Source: Planctomycetaceae bacterium
GTDB taxonomy: Bacteria > Planctomycetota > Planctomycetia > Planctomycetales > Planctomycetaceae
NCBI GenBank assembly: GCA_019636285.1
Contig: JAHBXV010000009.1
Span: forward strand, 1 to 64,000
Direction: 5' to 3'
DNA: 64,000 nt
In this document: positions 52,295 through 58,121 of the stretch, piece by piece
Layout: each line of letters starts with the position of its first letter
Numbering within the stretch: position 1 is the stretch's first letter
Translations under genes and position numbers: made by a program
Notes under the pieces: model-generated
Told to the model about the DNA's origin: nothing
Seen by the model: the letters and a program-made list of their open reading frames with translations, nothing else
The model's database searches: none

Positions 52295-53875
52295 ATGGCA
52301 ACGACGGCGAAAGTTCGACTGGCAAAGCGAATGGCCAACTGCCCGGCTTGCGGGGCAAAGGTCGAGTTTCGCGTCGGGACATCGCTGGTCACCGTCTGCG
52401 ATTTCTGCCAGAGCGCCGTCGCGCGCACCGACCGGGGCGTCGAAGACCATGGCAAGGTGGCGGACCTCGCGGAGACGGCCTCGCCACTGGCTCTTGGTCA
52501 AAAAGGAAAGTGGCAGGGCAAGACGCTGCGTCTCGTGGGACGGGTGCAGTATCGGCACTTTGCCGGCGGCGTGTGGGACGAGTGGTATGTTGCCCTGGCG
52601 AATGGCAAATGGGGCTGGCTGGCCGAAGCACAGGGGCAATTCTATCTGACATTGCATCGGAAGCTGTCGGATGCCAGTGCCATCCCGCCCATTGACGACC
52701 TGACGCCGGGCCAGACGATCACGCTGGGGGAAATTGGAGAGTTTACCGTCAACGAGACTGGTACTGCCGCATTTCATGCCGCGGAGGGGGAACTTCCCTT
52801 CGACCCTAGCAAGATCACGCTGCATCGTTATGCGGACCTGTCGGGTCCAAACGGTGCCTTCGCGACATTTGATTACAGCGACAGCCCGCCAGCCGTCTAC
52901 ACCGGCCAGAAGGTGACGCTGGATGAGCTGGAAATTCAGGGGCTGTCCCGCGAAGCAGTCGATACGGCCGTGGGCGCGTTGCAACTGAATTGCCCGCAAT
53001 GCGGGGGAACGCTGCCATTGCATGCGCCGGATTCGGCGCAACGGGCAACATGCCCCAGTTGCCGATCGTTGTTTGCAGTGGCGAGCGGCAAGCTGAGCTA
53101 TCTGCAAACCTTGCAGCCCCCGAAACCAGCACTGGTGATTCCGCTGGGAACGGTCGGCAAGCTCAAGAACATCGACTGGACCGTGATCGGCTACCTGCGG
53201 CGATACGTCACTTACGACAAACGCTATTATTGGGCCGAGTACCTGCTTTACCATCCGCGCGAGGGCTACCGCTGGCTGGTTCACAGCGACGATCACTGGA
53301 GTTTCGTCAGCCCGCTGCAACCGGGCGACGTCAAGGTCAGCGGAGATCGGGCGACCTGGAGCGGGCGGAGTTTTCGCTTGTTTCAATCGACCATTGTTAC
53401 GGTCAGCCAGGTGTATGGGGAATTTTATTGGGGAGTGAAGGCCGGCGAAGAAGTCCACGGCAAGGACTTTGTGAATGCTCCTGACATGATCTCGGTCGAG
53501 ACAAGCGATCCACGATTGACGGGAACCGAGGGGAAGGAAATCAACATTTCGCTCGGCGAATACCTTCCCCACGCCGAACTGGAGCAGGCGTTCGGCCTCA
53601 AGAATGTCCGCCGTGGGTGGGGCGTGGCGCCGAATCAGCCGTGCCCGGTCGGCAATGAAGTCTACGGGTACTGGCTGATCTTCGTCGTCTTCATCGCGGC
53701 TGCCTGGGGACTCTTGTCGAACATGCGTGCCAGCGGAGTCGACACGGCTTTGGGCGTCTGGGCTTTAATATTGGTCTCGTTGCAACCGATTGGCACGATG
53801 ATCTACAAATCGAGTTTCGAAGTCAGCCGCTGGAAAGACAGCGAGTTTAATCCTTACGCGAGTTCGGACGAGTGA
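52295..53875 (+). CDS. DUF4178 protein with two zinc ribbons
   Basis: 526 residues. Ribbon 1 has CPAC (16, 19) and CDFC (35, 38). DUF4178 domain 1 is about 60-130 (GKTLRLVGRVQYRHFAGGVW, DEWYVALANGKWGWLAEAQG). Ribbon 2 is about 232-256 (CPQC and CPSC). Domain 2 is about 280-345 (WTVIGYLRRYVTYD, YYWAEYLLYHPREGYRWLV). Two transmembrane segments lie at about 455-505. DUF4178 proteins often sit beside DUF350 and spermidine-synthase-like genes, as here. The role is unknown; a membrane-facing binding scaffold is a guess. ATG at 52295 follows GTGs in frame. Confidence 0.88.
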   Translation: MATTAKVRLAKRMANCPACGAKVEFRVGTSLVTVCDFCQSAVARTDRGVEDHGKVADLAETASPLALGQKGKWQGKTLRLVGRVQYRHFAGGVWDEWYVALANGKWGWLAEAQGQFYLTLHRKLSDASAIPPIDDLTPGQTITLGEIGEFTVNETGTAAFHAAEGELPFDPSKITLHRYADLSGPNGAFATFDYSDSPPAVYTGQKVTLDELEIQGLSREAVDTAVGALQLNCPQCGGTLPLHAPDSAQRATCPSCRSLFAVASGKLSYLQTLQPPKPALVIPLGTVGKLKNIDWTVIGYLRRYVTYDKRYYWAEYLLYHPREGYRWLVHSDDHWSFVSPLQPGDVKVSGDRATWSGRSFRLFQSTIVTVSQVYGEFYWGVKAGEEVHGKDFVNAPDMISVETSDPRLTGTEGKEINISLGEYLPHAELEQAFGLKNVRRGWGVAPNQPCPVGNEVYGYWLIFVVFIAAAWGLLSNMRASGVDTALGVWALILVSLQPIGTMIYKSSFEVSRWKDSEFNPYASSDE

Positions 53876-53884
53876 CAGGAGCCT

Positions 53885-53960
53885 CCGTCAAAACCCGGTT
53901 GGCGACTCGGACACCTCTACGAATTCAGGAACATTTCGTATGTCCAGAGGGTTTTGACGG
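53885..53960. repeat. Family B 76-base inverted-repeat element, copy 3 (inside operon)
   Basis: Same length as the other two intact copies but in the opposite orientation. Ends CCGTCAAAACCC and GGGTTTTGACGG pair perfectly. It lies 9 bases after the DUF4178 stop and 24 bases before the peptide start, so it would be transcribed within the operon. Confidence 0.85.
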
Positions 53961-53984
53961 TACAACGGAACGGGGCGTTTGGCG

Positions 53985-54161
53985 ATGTGGACGAAATCTT
54001 ATCTGGTAACGGGACTCTTGATTTCCGGGTGGTTCGCCACCGGGGCATTGGCGGGCTGGAAGGGCTGGGCGCCAAAACCCGGTCCTGGTGGTACATACTA
54101 CGGCACAAGCTACGGCGGTCATCGCAGCACGGGCTATGGCGGCTGGGGAGGAGGCAAGTAA
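53985..54161 (+). CDS. 58-residue exported Gly/Tyr-rich peptide
   Basis: Starts MWTKSYLVTGLLISGWF, a hydrophobic segment followed by ATGALAG, which looks like a signal-peptide cleavage site. The mature tail (about 33 residues) is Gly, Tyr and Trp rich with KPGPGGTYYGTSYGGH and ends GYGGWGGGK. Its TAA shares one base with the ATG of the DUF350 gene (TAATG). That coupling, plus the coding-like signal, supports it as real. I know no family. Tyr, Trp and Lys residues could be modified by the enzymes encoded next door; this is only an idea. Confidence 0.7.
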   Translation: MWTKSYLVTGLLISGWFATGALAGWKGWAPKPGPGGTYYGTSYGGHRSTGYGGWGGGK

Positions 54162-54439
54162 TGGCGGGTTTAGCGGGCATCACCCTTGGCGGAATTCTCG
54201 CGCAGGTGGGAACCGTTCCGACAGGCACGGACCTTTTGGTCGCACACCTCATCAGCGGCGTAATCTTTTCGGTGGTCGGACTGGCGGTCTTCCTCGCGGC
54301 CCTGTGGCTGATCGTGAAGTTCTCGCCGTTCTGCGTGGTCAAGGAGATCGAGGAAGATCAGAACACGGCGCTGGCGATCATCATCGGCAGCATTCTGATC
54401 GGGATCGCGATCATCATTGCGGCGGCGATTCAAGGCTGA
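54161..54439 (+). CDS. DUF350 membrane protein
   Basis: 92 residues with two to three hydrophobic segments ([21 protein letters not shown] and [21 protein letters not shown]) and the typical DUF350 features: short length, a [11 protein letters not shown] loop and DQNTALAI before the last helix. E. coli YjfL is a relative. Family members are found beside polyamine-type genes and PspA in other bacteria (from memory). Start codon overlaps the stop of the preceding peptide gene. Confidence 0.88.
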
Positions 54440-54476
54440 TCGTGTCCGGCGCGGCATAAGAACATCAGGTGATAAG

Positions 54477-56048
54477 ATGGAAGCAGATTCCGGGGTGGAA
54501 GAGCCGACTTCAGCCCCGGTTCCCATGAACCGTGCGCCGCTGTTCCTCTTGTACCTCAACGTCCTTGTCATCGCGACATGCGGGTTGATCTACGAGCTGC
54601 TCGCGGGGACGCTGGCCAGCTATGTGCTGGGGGACTCCGTCACGCAGTTTTCGCTGGTGATTGGAGTCTACCTGTCGGCCCTGGGAGTCGGAGCCTGGCT
54701 GTCGGGCTTCATCACGCGCGGGCTTGCAAGGTGTTTTATCGAAGTGGAACTGGGAGTAGCCCTCATCGGAGGCGCGTCCGCACCGCTCCTGTTTCTGACG
54801 TTCGCCCTGGCCGACTGGTTCGCGCCGATGCTGTATGGCATCGTCTTCGCCATCGGCACGCTCGTGGGACTTGAACTGCCGCTGCTCATGCGGATTCTGA
54901 AGTCGCACCTGGATTTCAACGATCTCGTCGCGCGCGTGCTGGCTTTCGATTACATCGGCGCGCTCGTCGCGTCGATTCTGTTTCCACTGCTCCTGGTGCC
55001 ACGGCTCGGCCTGGTCCGCACGTCGCTGGTCTTTGGTCTCTTGAATGCCGCCGTCGCGCTGTGGGGGACGTGGCTCTTACGTCCGTTGCTCTCGGAACGT
55101 GGGCTGGGGGGGTTGCGCGGCCGCTCGATCCTCGTCGCGGGGCTGCTCGTTGTCGGACTCATCAAGGCCGACTCCCTGACCCACTTTGCCGAAGAACAAC
55201 TCTTTACCAACCCGGTCGTACATGCCGAGACGACTCACTACCAGCGCATTGTCGTCACGCAATCGACCGAGTCGTTTCAACTCTTTCTGAACGGCAACCT
55301 GCAATTCAACTCGGCCGACGAATACCGCTATCACGAGGCGCTCGTCCATCCGCCCATGTTGTCCGCCGAGCGGCACGAACGCGTGCTCGTTCTGGGAGGA
55401 GGCGACGGATTGGGCGTTCGCGAAGTCTTGAGGTATCCGAGCGTCAAGGCGGTGACGCTCGTTGATATCGATCCGGCTATGACGGAGTTGTCAGCCAAGT
55501 TTCCGCCGCTGGCGGAACTGAATGGCGGCTCGCTGAGCGATCCTCGCGTCACGGTCGTCAACGACGACGCCATGCTGTGGCTGGAGCGAAGCGAAAGCCT
55601 CTTCGATGTCGTGCTGATAGATTTTCCCGATCCGAACACGTTTTCGCTGGGGAAACTTTATACGACGCGGTTCTATCGCCTGTTAAGGCGACGATTGACC
55701 GATCAAGCGGTGGTCTCATTGCAGTGTACTTCGCCTCTGGTGGCGCCGAAGTCCTATTGGTGCATCCTCAAGACGCTGGAATCCGCGGGGTTTTACGTCC
55801 GCCCGTATCATGCCAGTGTTCCGTCGTTCGGCGACTGGGGGTTCGCGCTCGCCACGATTCAGCCGCGGCCGATTCCTCGGACCATTCCGGACGAACTCGC
55901 CGCGTCGCTCCGATTTCTGGACAACGAGGCGCTCCCCGCCCTGTTCGCGATGTCGCGCGATCTTGCTCCTGTCGAAGTGGAGATCAATCGTCTCGATAAC
56001 CAGGCGCTGGTGCGCTATTACGAAGCCGAGTGGGACCGATGGAACTAA
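54477..56048 (+). CDS. Membrane-embedded spermidine-synthase-like aminopropyltransferase
   Basis: 523 residues. Residues about 20-235 hold about seven transmembrane segments; the rest is a spermidine-synthase domain. The S-adenosyl-binding loop is [14 protein letters not shown] (about 307), the acidic end of the next strand is LVDIDP, and the catalytic region is LIDFPDPN (about 381). [22 protein letters not shown], before it, carries the substrate-site Asp, Tyr and His. It should transfer an aminopropyl group from decarboxylated SAM to an amine, possibly at the membrane. ATG at 54477 follows AGGTGAT. The stop overlaps the next gene by 10 bases. Confidence 0.9.
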
Positions 56049-57673
56049 GTCGTCGGACCCTGCTGGCCGGCGCACTCGCGGCTCCGTTCGCCGGTTTGGC
56101 CGGCTGCGACGCGCGCTCGTCGCCACCGATTCGTGGCACGATCATCGGCCCCAATCGCACCGTTGGTCATCGACTGCGCGACGGTTGGCGGCCGATGGTT
56201 CCAGACGGTGCGTGGGAAGAAGTCGACGTCGTGATTGTCGGCGGGGGCGTCGCGGGGCTGGCGGCCGCGCGCGAACTTCGCCAGCAAGGCTGCGAGCGAT
56301 TCGTTGTTCTTGAACTGGAACTCGAAGTCGGAGGGACGTCGCGTGCGGGATCCGTTGGCGGGTTCGGCTGCCCCTGGGGCGCGCACTATCTGCCGCTGCC
56401 GCAGGCGCATCAGACCGACTTGATTGAATTTCTGAAAGAGATCGGCGTTGTCACCCATGTGGCAGCCGACGGAACGCCGAGCGTCCCCGAAGAAGCGCTC
56501 TGCCGCGATCCTGAAGAGCGCCTGTGGGTCGACGGCCGTTGGATGGAAGGCCTATACCCGTTCACCGGCGCGTCAGACGACGACCGACGGCAGTGGGACG
56601 AGTTCCTGCACGAAATGGCCAAGTGGGCCGCTTTCCGGGATGATGACGGCCATCCGGCGTTCGCGATTCCATCACGGCTCTGCTCAGCAGATGAGCGGGT
56701 GCTGGAGTTAGACCGACTGTCGTTCGCGGATTGGCTCGACGGCTTGGGTTATACATCGCTGCGGCTGCGCTGGGTCGCCGACTATTGCTGCCGCGATGAT
56801 TACGGTTTGCCCGCCTCCAGCGTGAGCGCGTGGGCGGGCGTGTTCTACTTCGCCTCGCGCTGGAATGGGAGCGAGGCACAGCCCTTATTGACCTGGCCCG
56901 AAGGTAATGGCTTTCTCGTGCGAAAACTTGGCGAGCCGCTGGCCGATCGACTGCGCTGTGGCTGGGCCGTGGCCTCGATTGTTCCGACGGGAGGCAGCGG
57001 ACCCTGCGAAGTGACTGCCGTGGATGTTGCGTCGGATGCGGCACATGGCTGGCGGGCGAAGCGGATAATCTTCGCGGCTCCGCAATTTCTCGCACCCTAT
57101 TTGATCGCCGGCTTTCGCAACGACGCGCGACGCATGGAGGCGGCGGGCCAGTTCACATACGGAAGTTGGCTGGTCGCGAATGTCGCCCTACGCGACCGAC
57201 CGCGCGAAACGGGATTTCCGCTGGCCTGGGACAATGTCCCTTACGAAAGTAATTCACTGGGCTATGTCGTTGCCACGCATCAACTGGGTCGCGACTTCGG
57301 TCCCACGGTCCTGACGTGGTATGAACCCTGGCATGGCGATGATGCCCGAAAAGTACGGCGCGAGCTGGAGGAACTGTCGTGGAATGAAGGAGCGGCCCGC
57401 GTGCTGGCCGATCTCACGCGGATGCACCCGGACATTGAACCCTTGATCGAGTCGATCGACCTGATGAAGTGGGGCCATGCGATGATTTCCCCGGTCGTCG
57501 GCTTTCGCGAAGGAGCGGCTCGAAGCATCGCCGCCGAGTCGTGGCAGGGCATTTTGTTCGCGAATACCGACCTCAGCGGGCTAGCCTTGTTCGAGGAAGC
57601 CTTCGACCACGGACAGCGCGCGGCCCGCGAGGTGATTGAGCAGTTGGCGGCTTCGCAAGATCGTCGCGGATGA
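56039..57673 (+). CDS. Tat-type lipoprotein flavin oxidoreductase (amine-oxidase-like)
   Basis: 544 residues. The N-terminus is a twin-arginine signal with a lipobox (SRRTLLAG...[12 protein letters not shown]), so it is exported folded and lipid-anchored. The FAD-binding motif is [19 protein letters not shown] (about 62-80), then [13 protein letters not shown] as in NAD_binding_8 / amino-oxidase proteins. C-terminal [22 protein letters not shown] is the second FAD contact. Substrate is unknown, but location after an aminopropyltransferase suggests a polyamine or modified amine. Overlaps the previous gene by 10 bases; last gene of the unit. Confidence 0.87.
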
Positions 57674-57755: not shown

Positions 57756-58121
57756 ATGAAGAGCACCAGCCACCATGATGAGCGGATACGAACCATGACC
57801 TTCGCGTCGGTCTATCCCCATCTGGTCACGAAAGTGGAAAAGAAAGGCCGTACCACGGCCGAACTGCACCAGGTGATCGAATGGCTGACGGGCTTTAACG
57901 AGAAAACTCTCAAGAAGCACATCGACGAGAAGCTGACGTTCGAGCAGTTTTTTGAACGGGCCAAACTCAATCCCAACGCCCACCTGATCACAGGCACCAT
58001 CTGTGGCTATCGGGTCGAAGAAATCGAGAACCCACTGACGCAGAAGGTCCGGTATCTCGACAAACTGGTGGATGAACTCGCGAAGGGCCGGAAGATGGAG
58101 AAGATTCTGCGCGAGGGTTGA
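57756..58121 (+). CDS. DUF2200 family protein
   Basis: 121 residues. The hallmark [20 protein letters not shown] and [20 protein letters not shown], then [26 protein letters not shown], are nearly textbook for this family. It is a small cytoplasmic protein with no known activity. It stands 82 bases after the flavin gene; whether it is in the same transcript is uncertain. Confidence 0.9.

Follow-up and report, generated by a model that had tools for sequence, protein, structure and literature searches.

The stretch analysed here, 64,000 nucleotides of contig JAHBXV010000009.1 from a Planctomycetaceae bacterium (assembly GCA_019636285.1; hereafter the window), carries an operon of five co-directional genes for a DUF4178 protein, a 58-residue peptide, a DUF350 protein, a seven-transmembrane (7TM) domain fused to a spermidine-synthase domain (SPD) and a flavin amine-oxidase-like protein. 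In operons of this kind SPD is accompanied by a small or larger membrane-bound protein that ends in lysine; the scaffold of this protein changes from lineage to lineage, the terminal lysine stays. Sequence comparisons favour, with moderate confidence, a reading in which this lysine is the acceptor of an aminopropyl group transferred by SPD, the oxidase acting at a later step. With comparable confidence, the operon as a whole is taken to make and use a protein modification.

The C-terminal lysine and the proteins that carry it

In the first set of loci a peptide of approximately 45-75 aa with one transmembrane (TM) segment sits between DUF4178 and the next gene, and in all 104 loci that hold both SPD and DUF4178 a co-encoded protein ends in lysine, nearly always as -GK or -HK. 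These 104 comprise 90 hydrophobic gap peptides found by rule, ten DUF4178 proteins with an HK end of their own, and four proteins recognised by eye outside the rule (L102, L103, L129, L169), while among background hydrophobic frames of the same loci a lysine end is seen in 63 of 1368. Under a strict rule, which takes the most hydrophobic frame of the gap, lysine is the last residue in 85 of the 91 loci with a candidate, the rest being topped by an overlapping spurious frame. Arginine replaces the terminal lysine in none of the 104 loci. Among the 90 peptides the penultimate residue is glycine (66), histidine (23) or valine (1), and the terminal lysine is the sole lysine within the last 15 residues in 84.

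The terminal codon of these 90 peptides is AAA (53) or AAG (37) and is followed by TGA (36), TAA (31) or TAG (23). Since codon choice is not fixed, with both lysine codons and each of the three stops occurring, and since the downstream genes differ, the lysine end is not a DNA signal. Likewise, the gene after the peptide is SPD in Rhodocyclales and SpeD in Burkholderia, so that neither coupling to DUF350 nor a ribosome-binding site explains it. These findings bear on the notion that the operon is an ordinary additional spermidine synthase operon, in which the tail would be a by-product of the Shine-Dalgarno sequence of DUF350 (GGAGG ... TAATG in the window). The sequence GGAGGAGGCAAGTAATG in the window, which overlaps tail codons as well as the start of DUF350, lends this some appeal, but the tail is retained when SPD, SpeD or an unrelated gene comes next, the -HK ends (23 of 90) lack G-runs, and planctomycete tails differ almost exclusively by synonymous changes; a Shine-Dalgarno origin of the GGGK codons is contradicted on these grounds, and the notion as a whole is scarcely credible. 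The ratio of nonsynonymous to synonymous substitution rates (Nei-Gojobori) of the peptide lies between 0.05 and 0.71 in the computable pairs, indicating purifying selection on the frame in most pairs; the first-pass annotation, made from the letters of the window, had named a lack of such selection as refuting its proposal.

Two further sets of loci extend the pattern. The second set consists of 33 SPD loci of other Planctomycetota, from 32 of the 39 matching genomes among 392; four genomes already present in the first set and three in which the match lies within 170 nt of the contig start (G454, G374, G298) were left out. A lysine-ended protein was found in 32 of the 33 loci, 29 by rule (a hydrophobic same-strand frame ending in -GK or -HK, at most 4.5 kb upstream of SPD) and three on a relaxed look, compared with 1 of 145 in the opposite-strand control. 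The relaxed finds lie downstream of SPD (L264, 338 aa) and on the opposite strand (L275, 335 aa), while the 507-aa protein of L272, located between DUF350 and SPD, had been missed by the rule through a wrong SPD start. In the sole miss, L258, the contig ends 337 nt upstream. The third set was taken from the Myxococcota, the phylum of Archangium, where the SPD fusion occurs in 79 of 146 genomes; 35 of the 79 SPD loci were hand-picked for diversity and judged by a looser criterion, accepting frames on either strand and anywhere in the locus, with a spurious frame inside SPD (L322) dropped. By this criterion a lysine-ended protein accompanies SPD in 27 of the 28 loci with DUF4178 or DUF350, and the one miss (L341) is cut by a contig end.

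The lysine end is carried by at least four unrelated scaffolds, namely the 45-75-aa peptide, the end of DUF4178 following a TM segment, lipoproteins and anchored proteins. Ten loci, from Variovorax, Polaromonas, Rubrivivax and the like, lack a peptide gene, and DUF4178 itself ends in a TM segment and a tail such as YRSSGGSYGGYSSGGGHK. Divergent operons encode lysine-ended lipoproteins of 230-260 aa (L183, L266-L269) or anchored proteins of about 500 aa (L067, L078, L271-L274), and lysine-ended proteins of 122-136 aa adjoin SPD in L350 and L351. In one of these divergent operons, on an Alteromonas mediterranea plasmid (L078), SPD is found with SpeD, a toxic anion resistance protein, DUF4178, a long DUF350 and a 536-aa protein ending in SSGK. 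The downstream protein of L264 (6697-7713) combines a zinc ribbon and a TM segment with a Ser/Gly tail that ends in SGFGGK, in a locus without a DUF350 or DUF4178 match. The protein of a DUF4247 variant in Corynebacterium and Mycobacterium reportedly has a lysine end as well and does not enter any of the counts given here. As a side observation, DUF4178 often finishes with a strongly acidic stretch (DDDE, GDDD) when the peptide has its own gene (L105, L125, L137, L142, L143, L147 and others), and this acidic end is missing where the tail is fused to DUF4178. In Solitalea agri (L149, 3440-6910) the DUF4178-peptide-DUF350 block is present as a tandem duplicate, and both peptides end in SGYTRSYYHK.

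The peptide is also distributed together with SPD. Among 170 genomes of the order to which the window belongs, the flavin protein was found in 48, the SPD fusion likewise in 48 (counted from matches better than 1e-50 and a contig-end fragment of G103) and both in 46. A profile built from 19 peptides matches 41 of the 170 genomes; the SPD fusion is present in all 41, and the 122 genomes that lack it gave no match (Fisher p 1.7e-32, the genomes not being independent). Seven genomes have SPD and no profile match; in five of these a lysine-ended protein was recognised by eye (L063, L067, L163, L182, L183), and in the remaining two (G103, G111) the operon is broken at contig ends. The two components co-occur even when unlinked, as in G002, which carries all five genes on five contigs and whose peptide ends in NFGK. 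The tail could also be thought of as an anchor, with an L,D-transpeptidase linking the terminal lysine to peptidoglycan, as in Braun's lipoprotein, so that the operon would be tethered to the wall while SPD acts on another substrate. Exported lipoprotein or single-TM forms with a C-terminal lysine would suit such a role, which however gives no reason for the strict co-distribution with SPD (41 of 41) or for the Gly/Ser ends of the DUF1190 lipoproteins in sister operons, and is considered improbable.

Enzymes, proposed reaction and membrane side

SPD matches the polyamine aminopropyltransferase model NF002956 over residues 15-522 of 523 (661.8 bits, cut-off 472) and is nearest to this family by both sequence and fold. 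In an alignment of 35 SPD sequences with the structures 3anx, 1uir and 1iy9, the GGGDG..RE stretch and both aspartates of DxxDP are kept, and Asp281, Glu316, Asp382, Asp385 and Gln416 are invariant (35 of 35); these correspond to catalytic and donor-side residues of spermidine synthase. The PTYPSGLWTF stretch of Bacillus subtilis SpeE corresponds to PSFG[ED]WGF in the SPD family. In the reaction that we infer, SpeD would provide decarboxylated S-adenosylmethionine (SAM), from which SPD would transfer the aminopropyl moiety onto the side-chain amino group of the terminal lysine of the membrane peptide, the flexible Gly-rich -GK/-HK end reaching into the active site that takes putrescine in spermidine synthase. 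DUF350 and DUF4178, elsewhere together with SPFH, would form the membrane platform, and the exported flavin protein would then act in the periplasm, with the modified tail or something derived from it as its target. Precedents exist for both aspects of such a tail, since deoxyhypusine synthase modifies a lysine with a polyamine-derived group and Braun's lipoprotein Lpp uses its terminal lysine as an exported attachment point; no sequence relation is claimed.

The flavin protein of the window matches Amino_oxidase (PF01593) over residues 71-533 (65.7 bits, cut-off 19.8), and of 87 flavin proteins 83 have a twin arginine (RR) near the start and 36 a lipobox-like motif. A Foldseek search with its structural model (predicted local distance difference test, pLDDT, 90.5) is led by SpdH (7d9j), putrescine oxidase (2yg7) and monoamine oxidase, whereas protoporphyrinogen oxidase first appears at rank 31 (E 4.1e-22 versus 6.7e-25) and carotenoid enzymes are not among the 50 matches listed. 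SpdH is also the best sequence-profile match, confined to the N-terminal part that binds flavin adenine dinucleotide (FAD), although SpdH and putrescine oxidase, as the closest folds, share 17-20% identity with the protein. On fold ranking and profile matches a carotenoid or protoporphyrin oxidase is rejected, in line with the earlier annotation, which had named such a grouping as incompatible with its proposal.

The same data might suggest that the tail is a substrate of the flavin protein, its lysine being oxidised to an aldehyde for cross-linking, with SPD catalysing a separate polyamine step. The export signal, the relation to SpdH and putrescine oxidase, and the presence of SPD in 46 of the 48 genomes with the flavin protein accord with this. 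The tail is nevertheless kept in seven loci with SPD and DUF4178 that lack the flavin gene although 2.5 kb or more of downstream sequence is available (L076, L084, L102, L103, L121, L142, L182), and in the divergent operons L077, L078 and L183 a lysine tail is present and no flavin gene is seen. On the evidence of these loci the view that the lysine serves the flavin protein alone is rejected, the lysine as its substrate is quite improbable, and the oxidase looks less essential than the lysine tail. The part played by the oxidase, the membrane side and any cross-link are weaker propositions than that of the lysine as acceptor.

In the SPD model (pLDDT 91.3) helices 19-51, 54-76, 83-111, 115-141, 147-200 and 207-229 precede the enzyme domain, and helix 147-200 is counted as two spans because of its length. 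Across 130 homologues the mean number of Lys and Arg residues is 2.7, 3.5 and 3.3 in loops 2-3, 4-5 and 6-7, versus 0.02, 0.8 and 1.5 in loops 1-2, 3-4 and 5-6. Hydropathy and these charge counts, used here in place of a topology predictor, suggest a cytoplasmic N-terminus, seven spans and a catalytic domain outside, the membrane side being unsure. Around the TM segment of the 90 peptides the charge is more positive before than after the segment in 61, equal in 22 and reversed in seven, and the lipoprotein scaffolds also place the tail outside. If this topology holds, tail, SPD domain and oxidase lie on the same outer side, and the donor would need to cross the membrane; alternatively, the tail may be modified before export. 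A fully extracytoplasmic and widespread version, in which decarboxylated SAM crosses the membrane through the seven-helix domain of SPD, the periplasmic spermidine-synthase domain aminopropylates the tail lysine, the flavin lipoprotein oxidises the product to a reactive aldehyde that links the platform to the envelope, and the terminal residue (Lys, or Gly/Ser in the sister ligase operons) acts as a code for the polyamine chemistry, is unlikely, if conceivable.

Several observations weigh against the lysine as acceptor for SPD. Firstly, the charge bias places SPD domain and tail on the outer side, where no decarboxylated SAM would be expected. Secondly, monoamine and polyamine oxidases have a conserved catalytic lysine, and no lysine is found among the invariant or near-invariant columns of two flavin-family alignments, in which the positions were not superposed. 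Thirdly, the interior of the tail varies freely in Rhodocyclales. Fourthly, DUF4178 is missing from the vicinity of SPD in 32 loci of the first set; seven of these hold a lysine tail, twelve have one elsewhere in the genome, one is the unfused SpeE-like gene of the window genome and for twelve the tail was not located or not followed, while no lysine-ended protein occurs near SPD in the seven SPD-only loci of the Myxococcota set. For nine first-set loci, eight without DUF4178 nearby and one with just its end (L145), the genome concerned holds DUF4178 in all nine cases, with a lysine-ended protein beside it in seven, in an eighth on a wider stretch (L321), and with the ninth cut by a contig end (L356). 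Finally, the linkage arises partly by sampling, since most loci were found through SPD and the converse was tested in one order.

The operon in the window and its distribution

The frames and families of the five genes (Table 1) agree with the earlier description of a co-directional unit with short gaps or overlaps. DUF4178 and the peptide are separated by 109 nt and DUF350 and SPD by 37 nt, while the DUF350 ATG overlaps the peptide stop codon (TAATG) and the flavin gene starts 10 nt before the end of SPD. Pfam scores are 124.5 bits for DUF4178, 45.2 for DUF350 and 128.8 for Spermine_synth; the peptide has no family match in Pfam or NCBIfam. Two hydrophobic segments lie close to the C-terminus of the DUF4178 protein and are followed by an acidic end. 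Elsewhere in the same genome, SpeD is encoded on another contig (G000:C1:307272-307589) and an unfused SpeE-like gene on C18. The operon is followed in the window by a DUF2200 gene (57756-58121; 178.4 bits), for which no link to the operon was seen, and neither Rfam nor tRNA scans produced a match in the window.

Table 1. Features of the operon in the window.
Feature	Position	Strand	Remarks
DUF4178 protein, 526 aa	52295..53875	+	two CxxC...CxxC zinc-ribbon-like stretches, two DUF4178 repeats
Lysine-tailed peptide, 58 aa	53985..54161	+	single hydrophobic segment, then Gly/Tyr/Trp-rich tail
Conserved peptide tail codons, last 12 residues, ending GGGK	54123..54158	+	Lys58, proposed acceptor
DUF350 membrane protein, 92 aa	54161..54439	+	Pfam
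SPD, about seven TM helices and spermidine-synthase domain	54477..56048	+	NF002956
Flavin amine-oxidase-like protein, exported	56039..57673	+	twin arginine, lipobox-like LAGC

The gene order is conserved in planctomycete relatives and far beyond them, in Acidobacteriota, Gemmatimonadota, Myxococcota, Proteobacteria and Bacteroidota, where SpeD and SPFH frequently join it; the first-pass annotation had named a lack of conservation in relatives as refuting its proposal. Since the five-gene set recurs in other phyla, peptide and oxidase are standard parts of the operon. The view that they are additions particular to this locus is not supported, and a planctomycete-specific unit is rejected. A Novosphingobium plasmid, for example, is annotated with SPFH, DUF4178, DUF4178, a 48-aa hypothetical protein, DUF350, polyamine aminopropyltransferase, FAD-dependent oxidoreductase and SpeD. 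The cross-phylum scan was seeded with a Gemmatirosa SPD, and the best 80 loci, out of a larger number, span Gemmatimonadota, Acidobacteriota, Elusimicrobia, Leptospiraceae, Bacteroidota, Nitrospinota, Myxococcota and several classes of Proteobacteria. Among 75 well-covered SPD loci, with flanks of 4 kb or more upstream and 2.5 kb or more downstream, DUF350 is a neighbour in 66, DUF4178 in 65, the flavin protein in 62, SpeD in 54 and SPFH in 40. In many relatives of the window genome SpeD lies immediately upstream of DUF4178. The flavin gene of many planctomycetes is found away from the remaining four genes, with both parts kept in the same genome (L043, L045-L051, L053-L055, L058, L059, L062, L064, L066).

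Relation to known systems and implications

In E. coli, YjfL is a DUF350 protein, and YjfC and YgiC are named peptide-spermidine ligases in RefSeq, an activity that reportedly goes back to work of Pederick in 2023. Their neighbours YjfM and YgiB end in GRSSSARGHWGG (..GHWGG) and SSRSMGG, respectively, so that ligase and SPD operons resemble each other in having DUF350 (beside YjfM/YjfC) and a Gly/Ser/Arg-rich exported tail beside a polyamine-handling enzyme. The difference is in enzyme and last residue: the ligase operons encode an ATP-grasp ligase and tails that as a rule end in Gly or Ser, whereas the SPD operons encode an aminopropyltransferase and tails that end in lysine. In 30 proteobacterial loci, of which at least four appear to give a wrong frame (L364, L370, L375, L378), the frame before the ligase ends in Gly in 18, in Ser in eight, in another residue in four and in lysine in none, and the GGGK end of the window peptide is thus unlike these DUF1190-type tails. 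The last residue of the tail fits each enzyme, because a ligase needs a carboxylate and an aminopropyltransferase an amine. Together with the C-terminal lysine itself, this contrast gives strong circumstantial support to the first-pass proposal that the peptide is a substrate, while the transfer, oxidation and cross-link that it envisaged stay conditional.

A membrane fusion of a spermidine-synthase-like domain linked to AdoMet decarboxylase was reportedly described by Li in 2019 as not making spermidine, and an acceptor other than putrescine is said to have been proposed and none named. That fusion is reportedly of the same type as SPD and shares the linkage to SpeD; the lysine-tailed protein is now offered as its acceptor.

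The operon type itself has been published: a PspA-linked operon combines SpdSyn-7TM, DUF350, DUF4178 and the lipoprotein Ctha_1186, with AdoMet decarboxylase and polyamine oxidase in sister variants, according to the passages found (Ravi 2024; PMC11237479). In those passages the operon resembles that of the window in joining the SpdSyn-TM fusion, DUF350 and DUF4178 with an extra exported protein. It differs in its DUF350, which has eight TM segments and is short in the window. The exported protein is a lipoprotein there and a 58-aa single-TM peptide in the window, and lipoproteins with a lysine end of the same kind are encoded in divergent planctomycete operons (L266-L269). PspA and CesT/Tir had no match in a Pfam scan of nine proteins at 50.5-59.3 kb of the window, four of them neighbours of the operon, the rest of the genome lying outside this search. 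The passages found in Ravi 2024 do not mention a small peptide with a terminal lysine, nor does the literature searched, which covers few subscription journals, mention a lysine-ended co-encoded protein. What is new is the constant lysine-ended part, which names the likely substrate.

Such systems were proposed to monitor polyamines or the aminopropylation of other substrates, as stated in the passages found (Ravi 2024; PMC11237479). In keeping with this, SPD might aminopropylate a small molecule or a lipid, while the lysine tail would serve only as pseudo-substrate or sensor, docking on DUF350 or in the active site of SPD. A C-terminal lysine does resemble the end of a diamine, and DUF350, SPFH and DUF4178 suggest a membrane-sensing complex; docking, however, would not call for a C-terminal lysine so strictly kept across four or more unrelated scaffolds, without a single arginine in 104 loci, and the tails of the ligase operons switch their last residue with the enzyme class. 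A regulatory role of this kind is doubtful.

The SPD fusion is common, and a co-encoded, near-invariant terminal lysine provides a concrete acceptor candidate that is ready for mass spectrometry. The gene for the tail protein is missed by annotation or called hypothetical, as in WP_193828724.1. If the terminal lysine is indeed the acceptor of SPD, this would answer the standing question of what the membrane enzyme of spermidine-synthase type is for. Aminopropyltransferase and ATP-grasp ligase operons would then follow the same principle, in which the scaffold is disposable and carries at its C-terminus an acceptor suited to the enzyme, and many bacteria would use polyamine chemistry to modify exported proteins.

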